Origin: Devosia sp. FJ2-5-3
GTDB lineage: Bacteria > Pseudomonadota > Alphaproteobacteria > Rhizobiales > Devosiaceae
DNA: 64,000 nucleotides
Direction: 5' to 3'
Assembly: GCF_029201545.1 (NCBI RefSeq)
Contig: NZ_CP104007.1
Coordinates: 1-64,000, forward strand
Numbering within the stretch: position 1 is the stretch's first letter; each line of letters starts with the position of its first letter. Position numbers and translations under genes: made by a program. Below, in pieces: positions 31,503-62,877 of the stretch. Under the pieces are notes generated by a model. That model did not search any database. It was not told the DNA's origin and worked only from the letters and a program-made list of their open reading frames with translations.

Positions 31503-31703
31503 ATGCCCAAGATGAAGACCAAGTCCGGTGCCAAGAAGCGTTTCAGCTTCACCGCAACCGGCAAGGTGAAGGCCGGCGTCGCCGGCAAGCGCCACCGCCT
31601 GATCAGCCACAATGCAAAGTACATCCGCACCAACCGCGGCACCAAGATCCTGTCCAAGGGCGACGAGGGTCTGGTGAAGTGGTACATGCCGTACAACCGC
31701 TAA
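31503..31703 (+). CDS. rpmI: Ribosomal protein bL35
   Basis: 66-aa basic protein of the large subunit, full length ([24 protein letters not shown]...VKWYMPYNR). AAGGA lies about 9 nt upstream. It is followed 19 bp later by rplT. Confidence 0.97.
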
Positions 31704-31722: not shown

Positions 31723-32124
31723 ATGTCACGCGTAAAAAGAGGCGTAACCGCCCACGCCCGTCATAAGAAGGTCTTGAAGGCTGCAGAGGGCTATTATGGC
31801 CGCCGCAAGTCTACGATCCGCATTGCCAAGCAGGCTGTGGAAAAGGCCGGTCAGTACGCCTATCGCGACCGTCGTAACAAGAAGCGTAATTTCCGCGCCC
31901 TGTGGATCCAGCGCATCAACGCCGCCGTGCGTGAATATGGCCTGACCTATGGCCGATTTATCGACGGCCTCACCAAGGCTGAGATTGCCGTTGACCGTAA
32001 GGTGCTGTCCGATCTCGCGATCACCCAGCCCGAAGCGTTCGGCGCTCTGGTCGCCAAGGCCAAGGCATCGCTGGCTTACCTCGAAAGCTTCGAGGCCACC
32101 ACCCACGCCCGCGCGACTGCCTAA
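31723..32124 (+). CDS. rplT: Ribosomal protein bL20
   Basis: 133-aa protein of the large subunit needed for early 50S assembly and, in other bacteria, the repressor of its own operon. N-terminus [30 protein letters not shown] is canonical; the C-terminal globular domain ends [16 protein letters not shown]. It is co-transcribed with rpmI and followed by an intrinsic terminator or attenuator before pheS. Confidence 0.97.
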
Positions 32125-32191: not shown

Positions 32192-32231
32192 CGCCTTGCG
32201 CCGCCCGACAGGGCTGGTGCGGGGCGTTTTT
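32192..32231 (+). terminator. Strong terminator/attenuator between rplT and pheS
   Basis: A stem of about 15 bp (CGCCTT-GCGCC-GCCC paired with GGGC-GGTGC-GGGGCG, one bulged T, GACA loop) is followed directly by TTTTTG and preceded by an AAAAA tract. It is 67 nt after rplT and 43 nt before pheS. It either ends the rpmI-rplT transcript or attenuates pheS; no Phe-rich leader peptide was found. Confidence 0.75.
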
Positions 32232-32273
32232 GTTTGCTCTAACCGCGCCAGCCCGTCCGAGTTGAAGAAGATC

Positions 32274-33404
32274 ATGTCCCTGCAAGCTGAGATCGACACC
32301 CTGCGCACCGATTTGTCGGTTGCCATTGCCGCCGCCGAAAACGAAGCCGCGCTGGATAGCGTCCGCGTCGCCGCCCTGGGCAAGAAGGGCTCCGTCTCGG
32401 CATTGCTGGGCACGCTCGGCACCATGGCTCCCGAAGAGCGCAAATCGGCCGGTCCCGCCATCAACGGCCTCAAGGTCGAGATCGCCGGGCTGATCGAAGC
32501 GCGCAGCGCCGAACTCAAGGCCGCAGCGCTCGAAGCCCGCCTCAAGGCCGAGACCGTCGATATCACCCTGCCGCTGCAGCCTGCGCCCACTGCGCGCGGC
32601 CGCATCCACCCGATTTCCCAGACGATCGACGAAATCACCGCCATTTTCTCGGACATGGGTTTTTCCATCTCCGAAGGGCCCGATATCGAAACCGACTATT
32701 ACAATTTCACCGCGCTGAACTTCCCCGAAGGTCACCCGGCGCGCGAAATGCATGACACCTTCTTCATGAAGCCGGGCCCGGACGGGGTGAAAAAGGTCCT
32801 GCGCACCCACACCTCCCCGGTGCAGGTGCGCGTCATGAAAAAGACCAATGAAAAGCCGGCCGCCTCCTACCTCACCCCGCCGCAGGATCCGCCGATCCGC
32901 GTCGTCGTGCCCGGCCGCACCTATCGCAATGACAGCGACCAGACCCACACCCCGATGTTCCATCAGGTCGAAGGTCTCGTCATCGACAAGTCGAGCCACA
33001 TCGGCCAGCTGCGCTGGGTCCTTGAAGAGTTCCTCAAGGCATTCTTCGAGGTGCCCAACGTTACCCTGCGTTTCCGCCCCAGCTTCTTCCCCTTCACCGA
33101 GCCCTCCATGGAAGTCGACGTCCAGTGCGACCGCTCCGGCTCGGAAGTGAAGATCGGCGAGGGCAATGACTGGCTCGAAATTTTGGGCTGCGGCATGGTT
33201 CACCCCAATGTCCTGCGCGAAGCCGGCCTCGACCCCGACGTCTACCAGGGCTTTGCCTTCGGCGCCGGCATCGACCGCCTCGCCATGCTCAAATACGGCA
33301 TGCCTGATCTCCGCGCCTTCTTCGACGCCGACCAGCGCTGGATCGAGCACTACGGTTTCAGGCCCCTCGATCTCCCCACCCTTTTTGGCGGCCTGTCGAG
33401 CTAA
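32274..33404 (+). CDS. pheS: Phenylalanyl-tRNA synthetase alpha subunit
   Basis: 376 aa from the ATG at 32274 (the frame opens at 32196). Catalytic subunit of the alpha2-beta2 class II synthetase that charges tRNA-Phe. The N-terminal coiled coil ([17 protein letters not shown]) binds tRNA. Class II motif 2 is seen around [26 protein letters not shown] and motif 3 around [17 protein letters not shown]. Unusually, pheT does not follow directly: a repeat pair and an ASCH-exonuclease gene intervene. Confidence 0.97.
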
Positions 33405-33449: not shown

Positions 33450-33580
33450 CGTCTCCCTCCCCCTTGTGGGGAGGGACGTCGCGCAGCGCCAAGGGTGGGG
33501 GTGTGGCTCCGCAGACTCTATCCGTGGGGCGCACCCCCACCCTCAATCCCTCCCCACAAGGGGAAGGGAGGCCGCGCAGT
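33450..33580. repeat. Large inverted repeat between pheS and the ASCH gene, copy B
   Basis: The left arm (from 33450) and the reverse complement of the right arm (to 33580) match closely: both read CTCCCT-CCCCTTGTGGGGAGGGA followed by GGGTGGGGGTG. Each arm is itself a hairpin. The structure would fold into a cruciform-like RNA in the pheS-pheT transcript. Same GC-rich family as the clusters near 24.1, 37.2, 38.7, 40.8 and 60.2 kb. Confidence 0.75.
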
Positions 33581-33603: not shown

Positions 33604-34638
33604 ATGACGGCGTCGTCAGACACAAAAGTCCGCTTCGCCTTCGGTGACTCTCCCGAGCTCGCCGATCGCCTGCTCGCGCTCGTCCTTGCTGGCAAGAAGA
33701 CCGCCACCTGCGGCGCGCTTCGCGATTTTGGTTCCGGCAAGGAGCCCATGCCCCAAGTCGGCCGACAGGACATCGTCCTCAATGGCGCTGGCGAAGAGGC
33801 CTGCATCATCGAAACCGTCTCGGTCGAAACCCGCAAATTCAGCGAGATCACCCCCGCCTTCACCGATCTTGAAGGCGAAGGCCCCTATGCGGAATGGCGC
33901 GCAGGTCACGAAGACTATTTCGCCCGCAATGGCGGCTTCTCACCCGACATGGACATCGTCTGCGAAATTTTTCGCCTCGTCTCGGTCCTGCCGGCCGGGC
34001 GCGAAACCTATAATCGCGTCGCTACCCCGATCTTCATCGTCACCGATATCGAATCGGACGGCCCCACCCCGCTGCACAATTCCATGCTGAGCTTTGCTTC
34101 GGTGGCCATCACTGCCGATGGCACGCGCCATGGCGAGTTCGAGGCGGTCTTAAAACCCCGGCCGGATCGCACCACCAATGAAACCACCATGGCCTGGTGG
34201 GCCACTCAGCCCGAAGCCTGGAAGGCGGCCACCGAAGGCGCCGAAGACCCGGCTGTCGTCATGCCGCGCTTTGCCGACTGGGTCGAAAGCCTGCCCGGCC
34301 CAAAAGTCTTCGCGGCCGCGCCCATGATCTTTGATGGTCTCTGGATGGACCATTATCTCGATGAATATGCCGGCACCCGCGTCCTCTCCGGGCCCTTCAA
34401 GAGCCGGCAGATTTTTCGCGGCGGCGGCGTCTGCCTTTACACCATGGCCGGAACCCTGCGCGGTGCGCCCTATCTCGATTGGGGCATGAGCAAGCTGCCG
34501 GCCGAGTTCTACGGCCATATCCCCCACACGCACCGAGCCATCGACGATGCCCGCGGCTTCGCCAATGTGCTCGTTGAACTTTTTCAACTTTCGTCCGCGC
34601 TGCCGCCTGTTACCGGCAGCAAAAGTGACTTCCGTTAA
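33604..34638 (+). CDS. ASCH domain fused to DEDDh 3'-5' exonuclease
   Basis: 344 aa in one uninterrupted frame. Residues about 9-128 form an ASCH domain: FGDSPELADRLLALVLAGKKTAT, PQVGRQDIVL, IIETVSVE, YFARNGGFSPDMDIVCEIFRLV. Lys32, Thr35 and Glu70 align with the catalytic Lys-Thr-Glu set of the E. coli ASCH amidohydrolase YqfB. Residues about 142-330 are a DnaQ-fold nuclease with all five expected residues: Asp148 and Glu150 (TDIESDG), Asp244 (MIFDGLWMD), His310 and Asp315 (HRAIDDA). The segment TMAWWATQPEAW recalls the Rv2179c/DexA-like branch. ASCH domains bind RNA or nucleotides. The substrate is unknown; an RNA-processing or tRNA-related job is inference from its place, 199 bp after pheS and 11 bp before pheT. 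Confidence 0.85.
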   Translation: MTASSDTKVRFAFGDSPELADRLLALVLAGKKTATCGALRDFGSGKEPMPQVGRQDIVLNGAGEEACIIETVSVETRKFSEITPAFTDLEGEGPYAEWRAGHEDYFARNGGFSPDMDIVCEIFRLVSVLPAGRETYNRVATPIFIVTDIESDGPTPLHNSMLSFASVAITADGTRHGEFEAVLKPRPDRTTNETTMAWWATQPEAWKAATEGAEDPAVVMPRFADWVESLPGPKVFAAAPMIFDGLWMDHYLDEYAGTRVLSGPFKSRQIFRGGGVCLYTMAGTLRGAPYLDWGMSKLPAEFYGHIPHTHRAIDDARGFANVLVELFQLSSALPPVTGSKSDFR

Positions 34639-34649
34639 GGTCCAGAAAC

Positions 34650-37073
34650 ATGAAATTCACGCTTGATTGGCTCCATGAGCATCTCGATACCCAGGCTTCG
34701 CCAGAGGAAATCGGCAAGGCGCTGACCATGATCGGCCTGGAAGTCGAAGGCATTGAAAGCCAGGGCAAGGCGCTCGAAAAATTCGTGGTCGCCCATGTCG
34801 TCTCGGCGACGCCGCACCCCAATTCCGACCACCTCAATATCTGCAAGGTCGATGCCGGCACCGGCGAATTGATCGACGTGGTCTGCGGCGCGCCCAATGC
34901 CCGCACTGGCCTCAAGTCGGTCTTCGCCTTCCCCGGCACCTATATTCCGGGCAAGGATTTTGAATTGAAGGGTGGCGTTGTCATTCGTGGCGCGCCGTCC
35001 AATGGCATGCTCTGCTCGGCCGCCGAGCTGGAACTCTCCAATGACCACGATGGTATCATCGAGCTGCCCGAAGACGCCCCGATCGGCGCAAAATATGTCG
35101 ACTACGCGGGCATCAATGGCGTCGTCTTCGACATCTCCATCACCCCCAACCGGGGTGACGCGACCGGCGTCTATGGCGTCGCGCGCGATCTCGCCGCCTT
35201 CGGCCTCGGCACGCTGAAAAAAACCGATTTCTCACCCGTGCCCTCCACCGGGCCGAGCCCGATCCCGGCCCTGCCGCATCAGTTCGCCGAAGGCGCGCCC
35301 AAGGCGATCCGCAAGTTCGCCGGCCGCTACATCGCCAATGTGAAAAACGGCCCCTCGCCTGAGTGGCTGCAGGCGCGCCTGCGTGCTGTGGGCCTGCGCC
35401 CCATCAACACCATCGTCGACATCACCAATCTGGTCTCGCTCGGCTGGGGTCGTCCGCTCCACGCCTATGATGCCGACAAGGTCGAAGGCACCATGGTGCT
35501 GCGCAATGCGCGGGGCGAAGAGTTCGACGCGCTCGACAACAAGATCTATACGCTCGACGAGACCATGACCGTCATCGCCGACGACAAGGGCCCGCTCTGC
35601 CTCGGTGGCATCATGGGCGGCATCCGCTCGGGCGTCACCGAAGAGACCGTCAATGTCGTGATGGAATGCGCGTCCTGGGATCCCGATCTCATCGCCCAGT
35701 CCGGCCGCAAGACCGGCATTGTCTCGGATGCCCGCTATCGCCTCGAGCGCAATGTCGATCCGGCCCTGACCGAACCTGGTCTTGAGCTGGCCACCCGTCT
35801 CGTCCTTGAGCTCTGCGGCGGCGAGCCGAAGGAACCGGCGATTTCAGGCGAAGACGTGTTCCCGAACACAATCGTTGAATTCCCGCTCTCCGAAGTGAAG
35901 CGCCTCACCGGCATCACCTCCGCTCCGGAAGAGGTTGAGGCCATCCTCACCCGCCTCGGCTTTGCCGTCGAAGGCTCGGGCGATACCCGTCAGGTAAAGG
36001 TGCCGTCCTGGCGTCCGGACGTGACGCAGAAGGCTGACCTCGTTGAGGAAGTCATGCGCATGGTCGGCGTCGACAACGTCCCGGTTGAGCCGCTGCCGCG
36101 TCTCAACCACGTTGCCCCGCGCATCCTCACCACCATCCAGAACCGCCGCCGCATCGCCCGCCGGGCGTTGGCGACGCGCGGTCTCGATGAGGTCGTCACC
36201 TGGAGCTTCATCTCCAATGCCGATGCCACCCGATTTGGCGGCGGCACCGAGGACCGGCAGCTGGCGAACGCCATTGCTGCCGACATGACCGACATGCGCC
36301 CGTCCCTGCTCCCCGGCATCATTGCCGGCGCGCGCCGCAACGCCAATCGCGGCTTTGCCGATGTGGCCCTGTTCGAGGTTGGCCAGGTCTTTCTCTCCGA
36401 CAAGCCCGAAGGCCAGCACACCTATGCCTCGGGCGTGCGCACCGGCACGTCCACGCTCAACGGTTCTGGTCGCCACTGGTCCGGCAAGCCGCAGACCGTT
36501 TCCGTCTGGGATGCCAAGGCCGATCTCTCCGCCGTGCTCGATTCCCTTGGCGTCGACATCGAAAAGGTCCAGATCCTGCCCGAGCCTGCCGCCTGGAGCC
36601 ATCCGGGTCGCGGCGGCCGCATCGCGCTCGGCCCAAAGGTCACGCTCGGCTGGTTCGGTGAACTGCACCCGGCTCTGGCCGCCGAACTCGACATCGAAGG
36701 CCCCATCGCCGCCTTCGAAATCGACCTCGACGCACTCCCCGAGCCGCGCAAGAAGGCGACCAAGACCAAGCCGGCCCTGGCCCTCAGCCAGTTCCAGCCT
36801 TTGAGCCGCGACTTTGCCTTCGTGATGGACCGCGCGGTCACCGCCGCCACCATCCTCAAGGCCGCCAAGGGCGCCGAAAAGACGCTGATCAAGGATGTCG
36901 GGATTTTCGATGTTTTCGAAGGTGTCCATGTCGGCGAGGGCAAGAAGTCCGTCGCCATCGAGGTGACCCTGCAGCCCCGCGACAAGACGCTGACCGACGA
37001 AGACATCGAAAAAGTTTCCGCCGCCATCGTCGCCGCCGTCACCAAGGCCACAGGCGGCGAACTGCGCAAGTAA
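34650..37073 (+). CDS. pheT: Phenylalanyl-tRNA synthetase beta subunit
   Basis: 807 aa, full length. The N-terminal EMAP-like tRNA-binding domain (MKFTLDWLHEHLDT..., VVAHVVSATPHPNSDHLNICKVDAG) is followed by the B3/B4 editing domain, B5, and the C-terminal anticodon-binding fold (SRDFAFVMDRAVTAATILKAAKG). The beta subunit recognises the tRNA and hydrolyses mischarged Tyr-tRNA-Phe. It starts 11 bp after the ASCH-exonuclease gene with AAGG overlapping that gene's stop, so translation is probably coupled. Confidence 0.97.
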   Translation: MKFTLDWLHEHLDTQASPEEIGKALTMIGLEVEGIESQGKALEKFVVAHVVSATPHPNSDHLNICKVDAGTGELIDVVCGAPNARTGLKSVFAFPGTYIPGKDFELKGGVVIRGAPSNGMLCSAAELELSNDHDGIIELPEDAPIGAKYVDYAGINGVVFDISITPNRGDATGVYGVARDLAAFGLGTLKKTDFSPVPSTGPSPIPALPHQFAEGAPKAIRKFAGRYIANVKNGPSPEWLQARLRAVGLRPINTIVDITNLVSLGWGRPLHAYDADKVEGTMVLRNARGEEFDALDNKIYTLDETMTVIADDKGPLCLGGIMGGIRSGVTEETVNVVMECASWDPDLIAQSGRKTGIVSDARYRLERNVDPALTEPGLELATRLVLELCGGEPKEPAISGEDVFPNTIVEFPLSEVKRLTGITSAPEEVEAILTRLGFAVEGSGDTRQVKVPSWRPDVTQKADLVEEVMRMVGVDNVPVEPLPRLNHVAPRILTTIQNRRRIARRALATRGLDEVVTWSFISNADATRFGGGTEDRQLANAIAADMTDMRPSLLPGIIAGARRNANRGFADVALFEVGQVFLSDKPEGQHTYASGVRTGTSTLNGSGRHWSGKPQTVSVWDAKADLSAVLDSLGVDIEKVQILPEPAAWSHPGRGGRIALGPKVTLGWFGELHPALAAELDIEGPIAAFEIDLDALPEPRKKATKTKPALALSQFQPLSRDFAFVMDRAVTAATILKAAKGAEKTLIKDVGIFDVFEGVHVGEGKKSVAIEVTLQPRDKTLTDEDIEKVSAAIVAAVTKATGGELRK

Positions 37074-37085
37074 GTTCAGACCCAT

Positions 37086-37285
37086 CTCCACCCTCCCCCT
37101 TGAGGGGAGGGCAGCGCAGCTTGCCCCGCAGGGGCTTAGCGAAGCTGGGAGGGGAATGCTACCAGACACACCCCCACCCACCCTCCCCTTCGAGGGGGAG
37201 GTTTCAGGCCGGTGTGTGCCGCAACTATCTGCCCGCCCCCTCCCAACCTCCCCCTTCCAGGGGGAGGTTGGGAGGGGGTATTCAG
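37086..37285. repeat. GC-rich palindromic repeat cluster, copy C
   Basis: Three hairpin units (CCACCCTCCCCCTTGAGGGG from 37088, CCTCCCCTTCGAGGGGGAGG near 37182, CCTCCCCCTTCCAGGGGGAGG near 37250) between pheT and folC. The first unit (37088-37155), with its GGCAGC..AGCTT and GCTGGGAGGGG tail, matches the unit at 40823 and, inverted, the one at 60215. Confidence 0.75.
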
Positions 37286-40482: not shown

Positions 40483-41016
40483 GGCAAAGCTCCGAAAAAA
40501 CAGGTCAGATCAAATGGGTAGGGCGACGCGGCGGCCCAGTTCAGGCAATCACTTATTTGTGTGGCTTTACCGCGCCCGAAAACAAGGAAAATTGTGCTGA
40601 CTTCGCGCCCGCAATGAGAAAGCCCCCCTGCTCCGCGCTCTCCGGCACGGGCGCGTTGGAGCGTCTGCACTAGTGCCCGATTGCTCAGCACACCGCCGGC
40701 TTCCCTCGGGCCTGACCCGAGGGCCACTCCGAGAGCCCCAATATTGGCAATGTGCGCTGGGACAGCGGCCCTCGGGTCGAGCCCGAGGGCAGTACCGTGC
40801 GGAGGGAAAAGCACCAGTCGCCCCACCCTCCCCCCTTGAGGGGAGGGCAGCAAAGCTTGGCCGCAGGCCCTAGCGGCGCTGGGAGGGGGTGTTCCATTCC
40901 CGCGGCCCTCATTGCTTCCCACGACGTCATCCCCGCGAAAGCGGGGACCCCCGTTGAAACAGCGGTTCCCGCTTCCGCGGGAATGGCACCGAGATAGAAA
41001 AACCGCTCCCGCTCCC
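40483..41016. repeat. Repeat-filled intergenic region, copy E
   Basis: Over 500 bp with no supportable gene, holding three repeat families: a CCCTCGGGCC..GGCCCGAGGG type palindrome (40697-40793), the CCTCCCCCCTTGAGGGGAGG unit with its GGCAGCAAAGCTTGG tail (40823-40890), and a palindrome GTCATCCCCGCGAAAGCGGG continuing to 40955, followed by an inverted relative to 40990. The 30 bp at 40926-40955 occur exactly, inverted, at 60311-60340. Confidence 0.75.
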
Positions 41017-62262: not shown

Positions 62263-62877
62263 TCAGCTATGGGCGAAGATGTCGGTCTCGTCCCAGCCCA
62301 GAAGGTCGAGCGCACAGCGCGTCTTGAGGAAATCAAAACAGGACTGGGCCAGTTCCATCCGATCCTCGCGCTTGAGCATGCGATCGAGATGGCGCTTGAG
62401 GTCGTGCAGGTAAAGAACGTCCGAGGCGGCATAGTCGAGCTGGGCGTCGGAGAGCTTTTCAGCGCCCCAATCGGAGCTCTGCTGCTGCTTGGACAGATCG
62501 ACATTGAGCAGTTCGCGGACGAGGTCCTTGAGACCGTGCCGGTCGGTATAGGTGCGCACGAGGCGCGAGGCGATCTTGGTGCAGTAGACCGGGCCGGTGA
62601 CGACGCCAAACCGATTCTGCAGGGCGGCCACGTCGAAGCGGGCATAGTGGAAGATCTTGGTGACGCCCGGATCGGTCAGGAGCTTGACCAGATTGGGCGC
62701 TTCGGTCGCATCCTTGGGGATCAGGACCACGTCGGCGCTGCCATCGCCGGGCGAGAGCTGGACCACGCAGAGGCGGTCGCGATGTGGATCGAGCCCCATG
62801 GTTTCGGTGTCGATCGCGACCTCGCGGCCATAATTGTCGAGATTTGGCAAATCGCCGCGATGCAGTCTGATGGCCAT
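62263..62877 (-). CDS. rnd: Ribonuclease D-like 3'-5' exonuclease
   Basis: 204 aa from the ATG at 62877 with GGAG seven bases upstream; the frame is open to 62964. DEDDy exonuclease core: Asp23 and Glu25 (AIDTETMG), Asp in HYARFDVAALQ, and Tyr/Asp in DYAASDVLYLHDL. The short form lacks the HRDC domains of E. coli RNase D, as is usual in this group. It acts on tRNA or other RNA 3' ends. First gene of the rnd-lptC-lptA-lptB run. Confidence 0.92.
   Translation of the reverse strand: MAIRLHRGDLPNLDNYGREVAIDTETMGLDPHRDRLCVVQLSPGDGSADVVLIPKDATEAPNLVKLLTDPGVTKIFHYARFDVAALQNRFGVVTGPVYCTKIASRLVRTYTDRHGLKDLVRELLNVDLSKQQQSSDWGAEKLSDAQLDYAASDVLYLHDLKRHLDRMLKREDRMELAQSCFDFLKTRCALDLLGWDETDIFAHS

Follow-up and report, generated by a model that had tools for sequence, protein, structure and literature searches.

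An ASCH domain and a DEDDh 3'-5' exonuclease are joined in a single protein of 344 amino acids in Devosia sp. FJ2-5-3 (family Devosiaceae, order Rhizobiales), encoded between pheS and pheT, the genes for the two subunits of phenylalanyl-tRNA synthetase (PheRS). The gene lies in a window of 64,000 nucleotides, positions 1 to 64,000 of the forward strand of contig NZ_CP104007.1. Its open reading frame (ORF) starts with ATG, and 11 bases separate its stop codon from the start of pheT at 34650. This arrangement, described in an initial annotation made from the sequence alone, is borne out by the coordinates and by Pfam, which also identifies the genes on either side as pheS and pheT. The fusion is a new architecture of known families that recurs in the Devosiaceae, keeps its catalytic residues and evolves under purifying selection. 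We read it, with a probability of roughly 45%, as an accessory enzyme that degrades RNA from 3' to 5', on substrates that its ASCH half would choose. In the open-access literature, no title or abstract was found on an ASCH-exonuclease fusion or on its place between pheS and pheT.

The fusion is not peculiar to one sequence. A match to the fusion protein occurs in 102 of 136 Devosiaceae genomes; the other 34 have none at E<=0.001, and neither do 25 of the 119 genomes with completeness of 90% or more and contamination of 5% or less. Architectures were assigned in 101 of the matched genomes, with the exclusion of G050, where a distant exonuclease gene lies elsewhere and the slot between pheS and pheT is empty. 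The ASCH-exonuclease fusion is present in 46 genomes, all within the genus group of the window, and a fusion of reversed order, exonuclease then ASCH, occupies the same place in six genomes, all of genus group g13. The two domains are encoded by separate genes in the slot in 11 genomes, the exonuclease stands alone in 31 and the ASCH domain alone in seven. At 100 of the 101 loci, the gene or genes are preceded by pheS and followed by pheT, all on one strand, and the remaining locus is at a contig end. A protein search returned 831 sequences; among the 120 listed, 80 are 338-348 amino acids long and cover 97-100% of the query, and among named genomes a Devosia metagenome-assembled genome gives the best match over the full length (97% identity). 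In the two loci read, one ORF of 338 amino acids encodes the reversed fusion, there is no break between the domain matches in any of the six, and the copy from Maritalea mobilis, used as a query, retrieved at least 14 clusters at 98-100% coverage. The source genome, one contig of 4.19 Mb, holds a single match to the fusion protein.

The two halves also occur apart. Within the genus group of the window, two genomes are ASCH-only and 15 are exonuclease-only, one of the latter (G065) being at a contig end, where a fused state is possible. Separate ASCH and exonuclease genes in the slots of other genera are on the same strand and often only a few dozen bases from each other. Since the halves are found alone or as neighbours in the slot, each presumably has a function of its own. 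A quick LG+G4 tree of the exonuclease, unrooted and with 43 of 87 inner branches open, was built from 90 of 94 rows, with exclusion of rows that bear stops or have at most 150 residues. The reversed fusions form one branch, with a Shimodaira-Hasegawa-like approximate likelihood ratio (SH-aLRT) of 100, and the exonuclease-only genomes are scattered among the fused ones. The scatter would be explained most simply by repeated loss of the ASCH half, a reading that is unsure as to gain versus loss given forks that are often weak and the unrooted tree. In two relatives, G062 (locus L113) and G081 (locus L140), changes of frame or stop codons have disrupted the exonuclease gene, which are signs of recent loss. 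In G002 (locus L105), the slot holds two tandem exonuclease genes, the second 46% identical to that of the window.

All five residues that the initial annotation assigned to the DEDDh site, Asp148, Glu150, Asp244, His310 and Asp315, are kept without exception in the 111 distinct exonuclease sequences. (Conservation was counted in distinct sequences; hits covering at most 75% of the query were excluded, and ASCH hits of more than 100 residues were retained.) The Pfam matches to the nuclease half are weak. PF16473, the Rv2179c-like exoribonuclease family, matches residues 146-253 (E 3.8e-5) at 23.9 bits, below its curated gathering cut-off of 27, although precomputed PF16473 assignments are present on several close relatives of the fusion protein. 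PF00929 (E 0.0054) is also below its cut-off, and chains of RNase T are reached with a profile only at E 0.004-0.009, so that sequence does not place the nuclease in the RNase T family. At E<=1, the fusion matches two NCBIfam models, both for other DEDD exonucleases and both far under the cut-off. Stronger matches were obtained to PHROG 255 (1.8e-7), to the PADLOC exonuclease effector model (5.5e-9) and, by profile, to Cap18 (9.1e-29). Comparison of the nuclease half by Foldseek and VIA-align matches it to Cap18, RNase T, Orn and DnaQ, which have the RNase H-like exonuclease fold. The nuclease half can therefore be placed, from its residues and its predicted fold, among the DEDDh 3'-5' exonucleases, with a catalytic site that is complete and apparently intact. 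A dead nuclease is ruled out for the protein of the window by these intact and invariant residues.

The nearest solved folds of the nuclease half are Cap18 from the cyclic oligonucleotide-based antiphage signalling system (CBASS) of E. coli upec-117 (7t2s) and RNase T. Cap18 is a chain of 187 residues without an ASCH domain, and is termed uncharacterized in its own paper (PMC9122588). The fusion gene, in contrast, has pheS and pheT as its neighbours, which are the flanks at 100 of 101 family loci; no search for a CD-NTase (cGAS/DncV-like nucleotidyltransferase) was made. RNase T, which also lacks an ASCH domain, shows 12-16% identity.

Both halves of the protein are under purifying selection, the nuclease half more strictly. 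Against ten chosen relatives, the ratio of nonsynonymous to synonymous substitution rates (dN/dS) is 0.014-0.088 for the nuclease half, 0.056-0.093 for pheS and 0.013-0.118 for pheT (seven of the ten comparisons). For the ASCH half it is 0.130-0.179 in the seven of ten comparisons that are free of gaps, five of which have dS >1; three ASCH and three pheT comparisons that needed gaps were omitted. An AlphaFold model of the fusion protein has a predicted local distance difference test score (pLDDT) of 93.6 and a predicted template modelling score (pTM) of 0.86, with both domains folded and a nuclease half that matches folds of DEDDh exonucleases. A sequencing error or a chance ORF is ruled out by recurrence, purifying selection and the predicted structure. 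The two outcomes that the initial annotation held against itself, a nuclease half that is inactive or outside the DEDDh families and a fusion unique to this sequence through an error, are both contradicted by the intact site, the recurrence and the selection.

Membership of the first half in the ASCH superfamily is clear, with a match of PF04266 to residues 21-126 (E 7e-19; 68.9 bits against a cut-off of 21.2), and it is the only ASCH domain in the source genome. The motif GxKxx[ETS] is present as Gly30, Lys32 and Thr35, and the final arginine of the published motif falls at Gly37. Among 95 sequences, Gly14, Asp15, Cys36, Trp98, His102 and Glu90 are invariant, Lys32 and Glu92 are each kept in 94, and position 35 carries Thr (87 sequences) or Ser (seven). 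The conserved residues Gly14, Asp15, Lys32, Thr35, Cys36, Glu90, Glu92, Trp98 and His102 probably share one pocket. The nearest solved fold is EF3133 (1t62), a YhfF-type ASCH protein, as is 3s9x. The solved YhfF-type chains have 159-166 residues, whereas the ASCH domain of the fusion is joined to a nuclease in the slot between pheS and pheT; no function was found for either 1t62 or 3s9x.

The initial annotation had likened Lys32, Thr35 and Glu70 to the catalytic set of YqfB, the N4-acetylcytidine (ac4C) amidohydrolase of E. coli, a protein of 103 residues in the same superfamily. The comparison holds for Lys32 and Thr35, which correspond to Lys21 and Thr24 of YqfB, but not for Glu70, which aligns with Glu54 by hhalign and by two settings of MAFFT; the counterpart of Glu74 is Glu90. 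The Lys-Thr-Glu triad is thus present, in an alignment of the two families that is itself weak (hhalign probability 5%). His70 of YqfB is replaced by Phe86 with both programs, a position with 89 Phe, four Met, one Ile, one Leu and no His among the 95 sequences. Arg26 is uncertain, since it falls on Gly37 without gaps by hhalign or on Arg40, present in 68 of 95, with gaps by MAFFT; YqfB without Arg26 is inactive, according to PMC6972931. The ASCH ribonuclease of Zymomonas mobilis, ZmASCH, with Tyr47, Lys53 and Ser128 in its cleft, has the superfamily in common with the ASCH half, and Mg2+-dependent cleavage of single-stranded RNA is reported for it in PMC5615036; ZmASCH is absent among the sequence matches to solved structures at E<=0.1.

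The initial annotation suggested a tie to translation, which a control survey of the slot weakens. A search for PheT across 199 genomes of the order gave a match in 191, and 90 of these loci (L206-L295) were read, namely the 30 best matches, with flanks of 1.5 kb, and 60 picked across families rather than drawn at random. pheS was found at 83 of these loci. Fewer than 300 bases separate the two genes at 52, other genes lie between them at 26, and an ASCH domain, the exonuclease or both at five, of which four are from Devosiaceae and one from another family (G301). The seven Devosiaceae in the survey comprise those four, two empty slots and one slot with another gene. Ten of 27 cargo ORFs were put to Pfam and seven matched, including YetF/DUF421, DUF559, DUF2442, cytochrome c', DUF922, a protoglobin chemoreceptor and LysE. 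In six of the 26 cargo-bearing slots, the ORFs are similar to each other, and one of them matches DUF559. The slot is therefore an insertion site for extra genes in this order, and residence in it is on its own weak evidence of a role in translation. The absence of a match from 34 of the 136 family genomes also weighs against the tie.

The distribution of the separate domains speaks on the other side. An ASCH match was found in 41 of 297 genomes of the order, and in the 30 loci read of these, the gene is in the slot at all seven from Devosiaceae; of the 23 others, nine are in the slot, six are just 3' of pheT and eight have neither gene in their flanks. In one other family, f44 (loci L160-L163, L166 and L167), the ASCH gene directly follows the 3' end of pheT instead of sitting in the slot. 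The exonuclease was matched in 25 of the 297 genomes, with all loci read, and is in the slot at seven of eight Devosiaceae loci and at two of 17 others, from two families. Because ASCH genes recur beside pheS or pheT in other families, there may still be a link to translation. An explanation by cargo accounts most poorly for this repeated neighbourhood, on the 3' side of pheT as well as in the slot. In the wider class, this ASCH domain is present in 24 of 385 genomes, including that of the window, and among the other 23, with flanks of 1.5 kb read, only G655 has it near pheS or pheT; there the ASCH gene is on two pieces at contig ends, in an assembly with 8% contamination. No general coupling of ASCH and exonuclease was found outside Devosiaceae: among the five other genomes with an exonuclease of at least 40% identity, one also has an ASCH match, on a different contig.

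In the reading that we favour, the YhfF-type ASCH domain would supply the specificity by holding either a nucleotide or single-stranded RNA in its 3' region, and the DEDDh exonuclease, its fold nearest to those of Cap18 and RNase T, would use Mg2+ to strip nucleotides from 3' to 5', from RNA rather than DNA. The gene would reside in the slot mainly since this site takes up extra genes, which are then expressed along with the translation operon. Several points weigh against this. No biochemistry was found on any close relative of the fusion protein, the ASCH and exonuclease genes do not travel together outside Devosiaceae, and some Devosia retain one half without the other. YqfB-like proteins bound no nucleic acid, according to PMC9599836, so that RNA binding by the ASCH half is not to be assumed. 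The fold matches include the DNA exonucleases DnaQ, DinG, DexA and a TREX1 homologue, and thus the fold cannot separate RNA from DNA as substrate.

The chief rival to an accessory exoribonuclease is a neutral fusion, in which adjacent genes of the slot were joined by loss of a stop codon and the halves keep their own jobs across a functionless link. It is compatible with the functional alternatives and draws on the separate same-strand genes in the slot (11 of 136 genomes), on the lone halves in the genus group of the window and on the absence of co-occurrence outside the family. It is nevertheless somewhat unlikely: 46 genomes keep the fusion, and the opposite order in another genus means more than one accident; a pTM of 0.86 also fits, without proving, a fixed arrangement of the domains. 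That the protein trims or surveys the 3' ends of tRNA (or of transfer-messenger RNA or rRNA) in an RNase T-like way, directed by its ASCH half and co-regulated with PheRS, is unlikely. The fold near that of RNase T, the ASCH and exonuclease loci of other families at pheS and pheT, and the occurrence of only one strong PF00929 match besides the fusion in the genome (191109-191585, which appears DnaQ-like) are in its favour. The other cargo of the slot and the single, contaminated instance in the wider class are not, and the lack of a match in a quarter of the family genomes would be odd for a core enzyme of tRNA maturation.

A two-step salvage of modified nucleotides, in which the exonuclease releases mononucleotides for hydrolysis of a modified base by the ASCH domain, as with YqfB and N4-acylcytosines, the starting material being RNA, appears improbable. 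Lys32, Thr or Ser at position 35 (94 of 95) and Glu90 match YqfB residues whose roles are given in PMC6972931. However, GxKxx[ETS]xR is the signature of the whole superfamily rather than of hydrolases (PMC9599836), and His70 and the essential Arg26 have no secure counterparts. Furthermore, TmcA_N was not found in the source genome, with a positive control in E. coli, so that there is no sign of ac4C formation by TmcA. Similarly doubtful is a role in defence or nucleic-acid surveillance, in which the ASCH domain would detect foreign DNA or RNA by a modified base, for degradation by the Cap18-like exonuclease. The best solved match is to a protein of a CBASS operon, the PADLOC effector model matches, viruses including phages carry exonucleases of similar fold, the gene is patchy in its presence, and some slot cargo in other genomes resembles toxin-antitoxin parts (DUF2442). 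Some of the cargo without a Pfam match may be HEPN-like. Yet the immediate neighbours are pheS and pheT (no defence scan was made of the rest of the window), and selection on the nuclease half resembles that on pheT, at a constant place, unlike the fast turnover of defence cargo. Phage protection was also unchanged with catalytically dead Cap18, according to PMC9122588.

The features of the locus are collected in Table 1. The true start of pheS is likely the ATG at 32274. Upstream of pheS on the + strand are two short ORFs, 31503-31703 and 31723-32124, which we take to be rpmI-like and rplT-like, and the ORF beyond pheT is presumably folC-like. A gap of 199 bases separates pheS from the fusion gene and contains a palindromic element with half-sites CCCTCCCCACAAGGGG; further sites are at 37096-37111 and 40832-40847. 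Four matches with at most three mismatches occur in the window, where 0.98 are expected, and two of 100 shuffles reach four. PF01612 has three above-cut-off matches in the source genome, one of them inside the window, to a short RNase D-like protein of 204 amino acids encoded at 62266-62877 on the - strand; RNase D is its best NCBIfam model, below the cut-off. It is probably NrnC, a dinucleotide nuclease known from Alphaproteobacteria.

Table 1. Coordinates of the ASCH-exonuclease gene, its parts and its neighbours in the window.
Feature	Coordinates	Strand	Residues or detail	Basis
ASCH-DEDDh fusion gene	33604..34638	+	344 amino acids	ORF, Pfam, recurrence, conservation, model
YhfF-type ASCH domain	33604..34008	+	residues 1-135 (Pfam core 21-126)	
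Linker helix	33991..34020	+	residues 130-139	predicted model
DEDDh 3'-5' exonuclease domain	34015..34635	+	residues 138-344	
pheS	32196..33404	+	listed from TTG	ORF, Pfam
pheT	34650..37073	+		ORF, Pfam
Palindromic element, pheS-fusion gap	33453..33570		24-nucleotide arms 33453-33476 and 33547-33570, 96% complementary	

Taken together, the initial annotation described the object correctly, its integrity included, but went beyond the evidence on its function and place. The survey of the slot serves as a warning that an address between pheS and pheT is, in this order, weak evidence for a role in translation. A bolder proposal is that the protein is an undescribed reader-nuclease, in which the ASCH domain recognises a specific nucleotide, modified or damaged, that lies at the 3' end of an RNA or close to it, and passes the RNA to the fused DEDDh exonuclease, a form of 3'-end quality control repeatedly attached to the PheRS operon in this order and fused in both orders; this is a long shot. 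For YhfF-type ASCH domains, two solved structures but no function were found, and the fusion, together with its natural counterpart of reversed order and the single-domain proteins of near relatives, provides a compact way to ask what the ASCH domain recognises.
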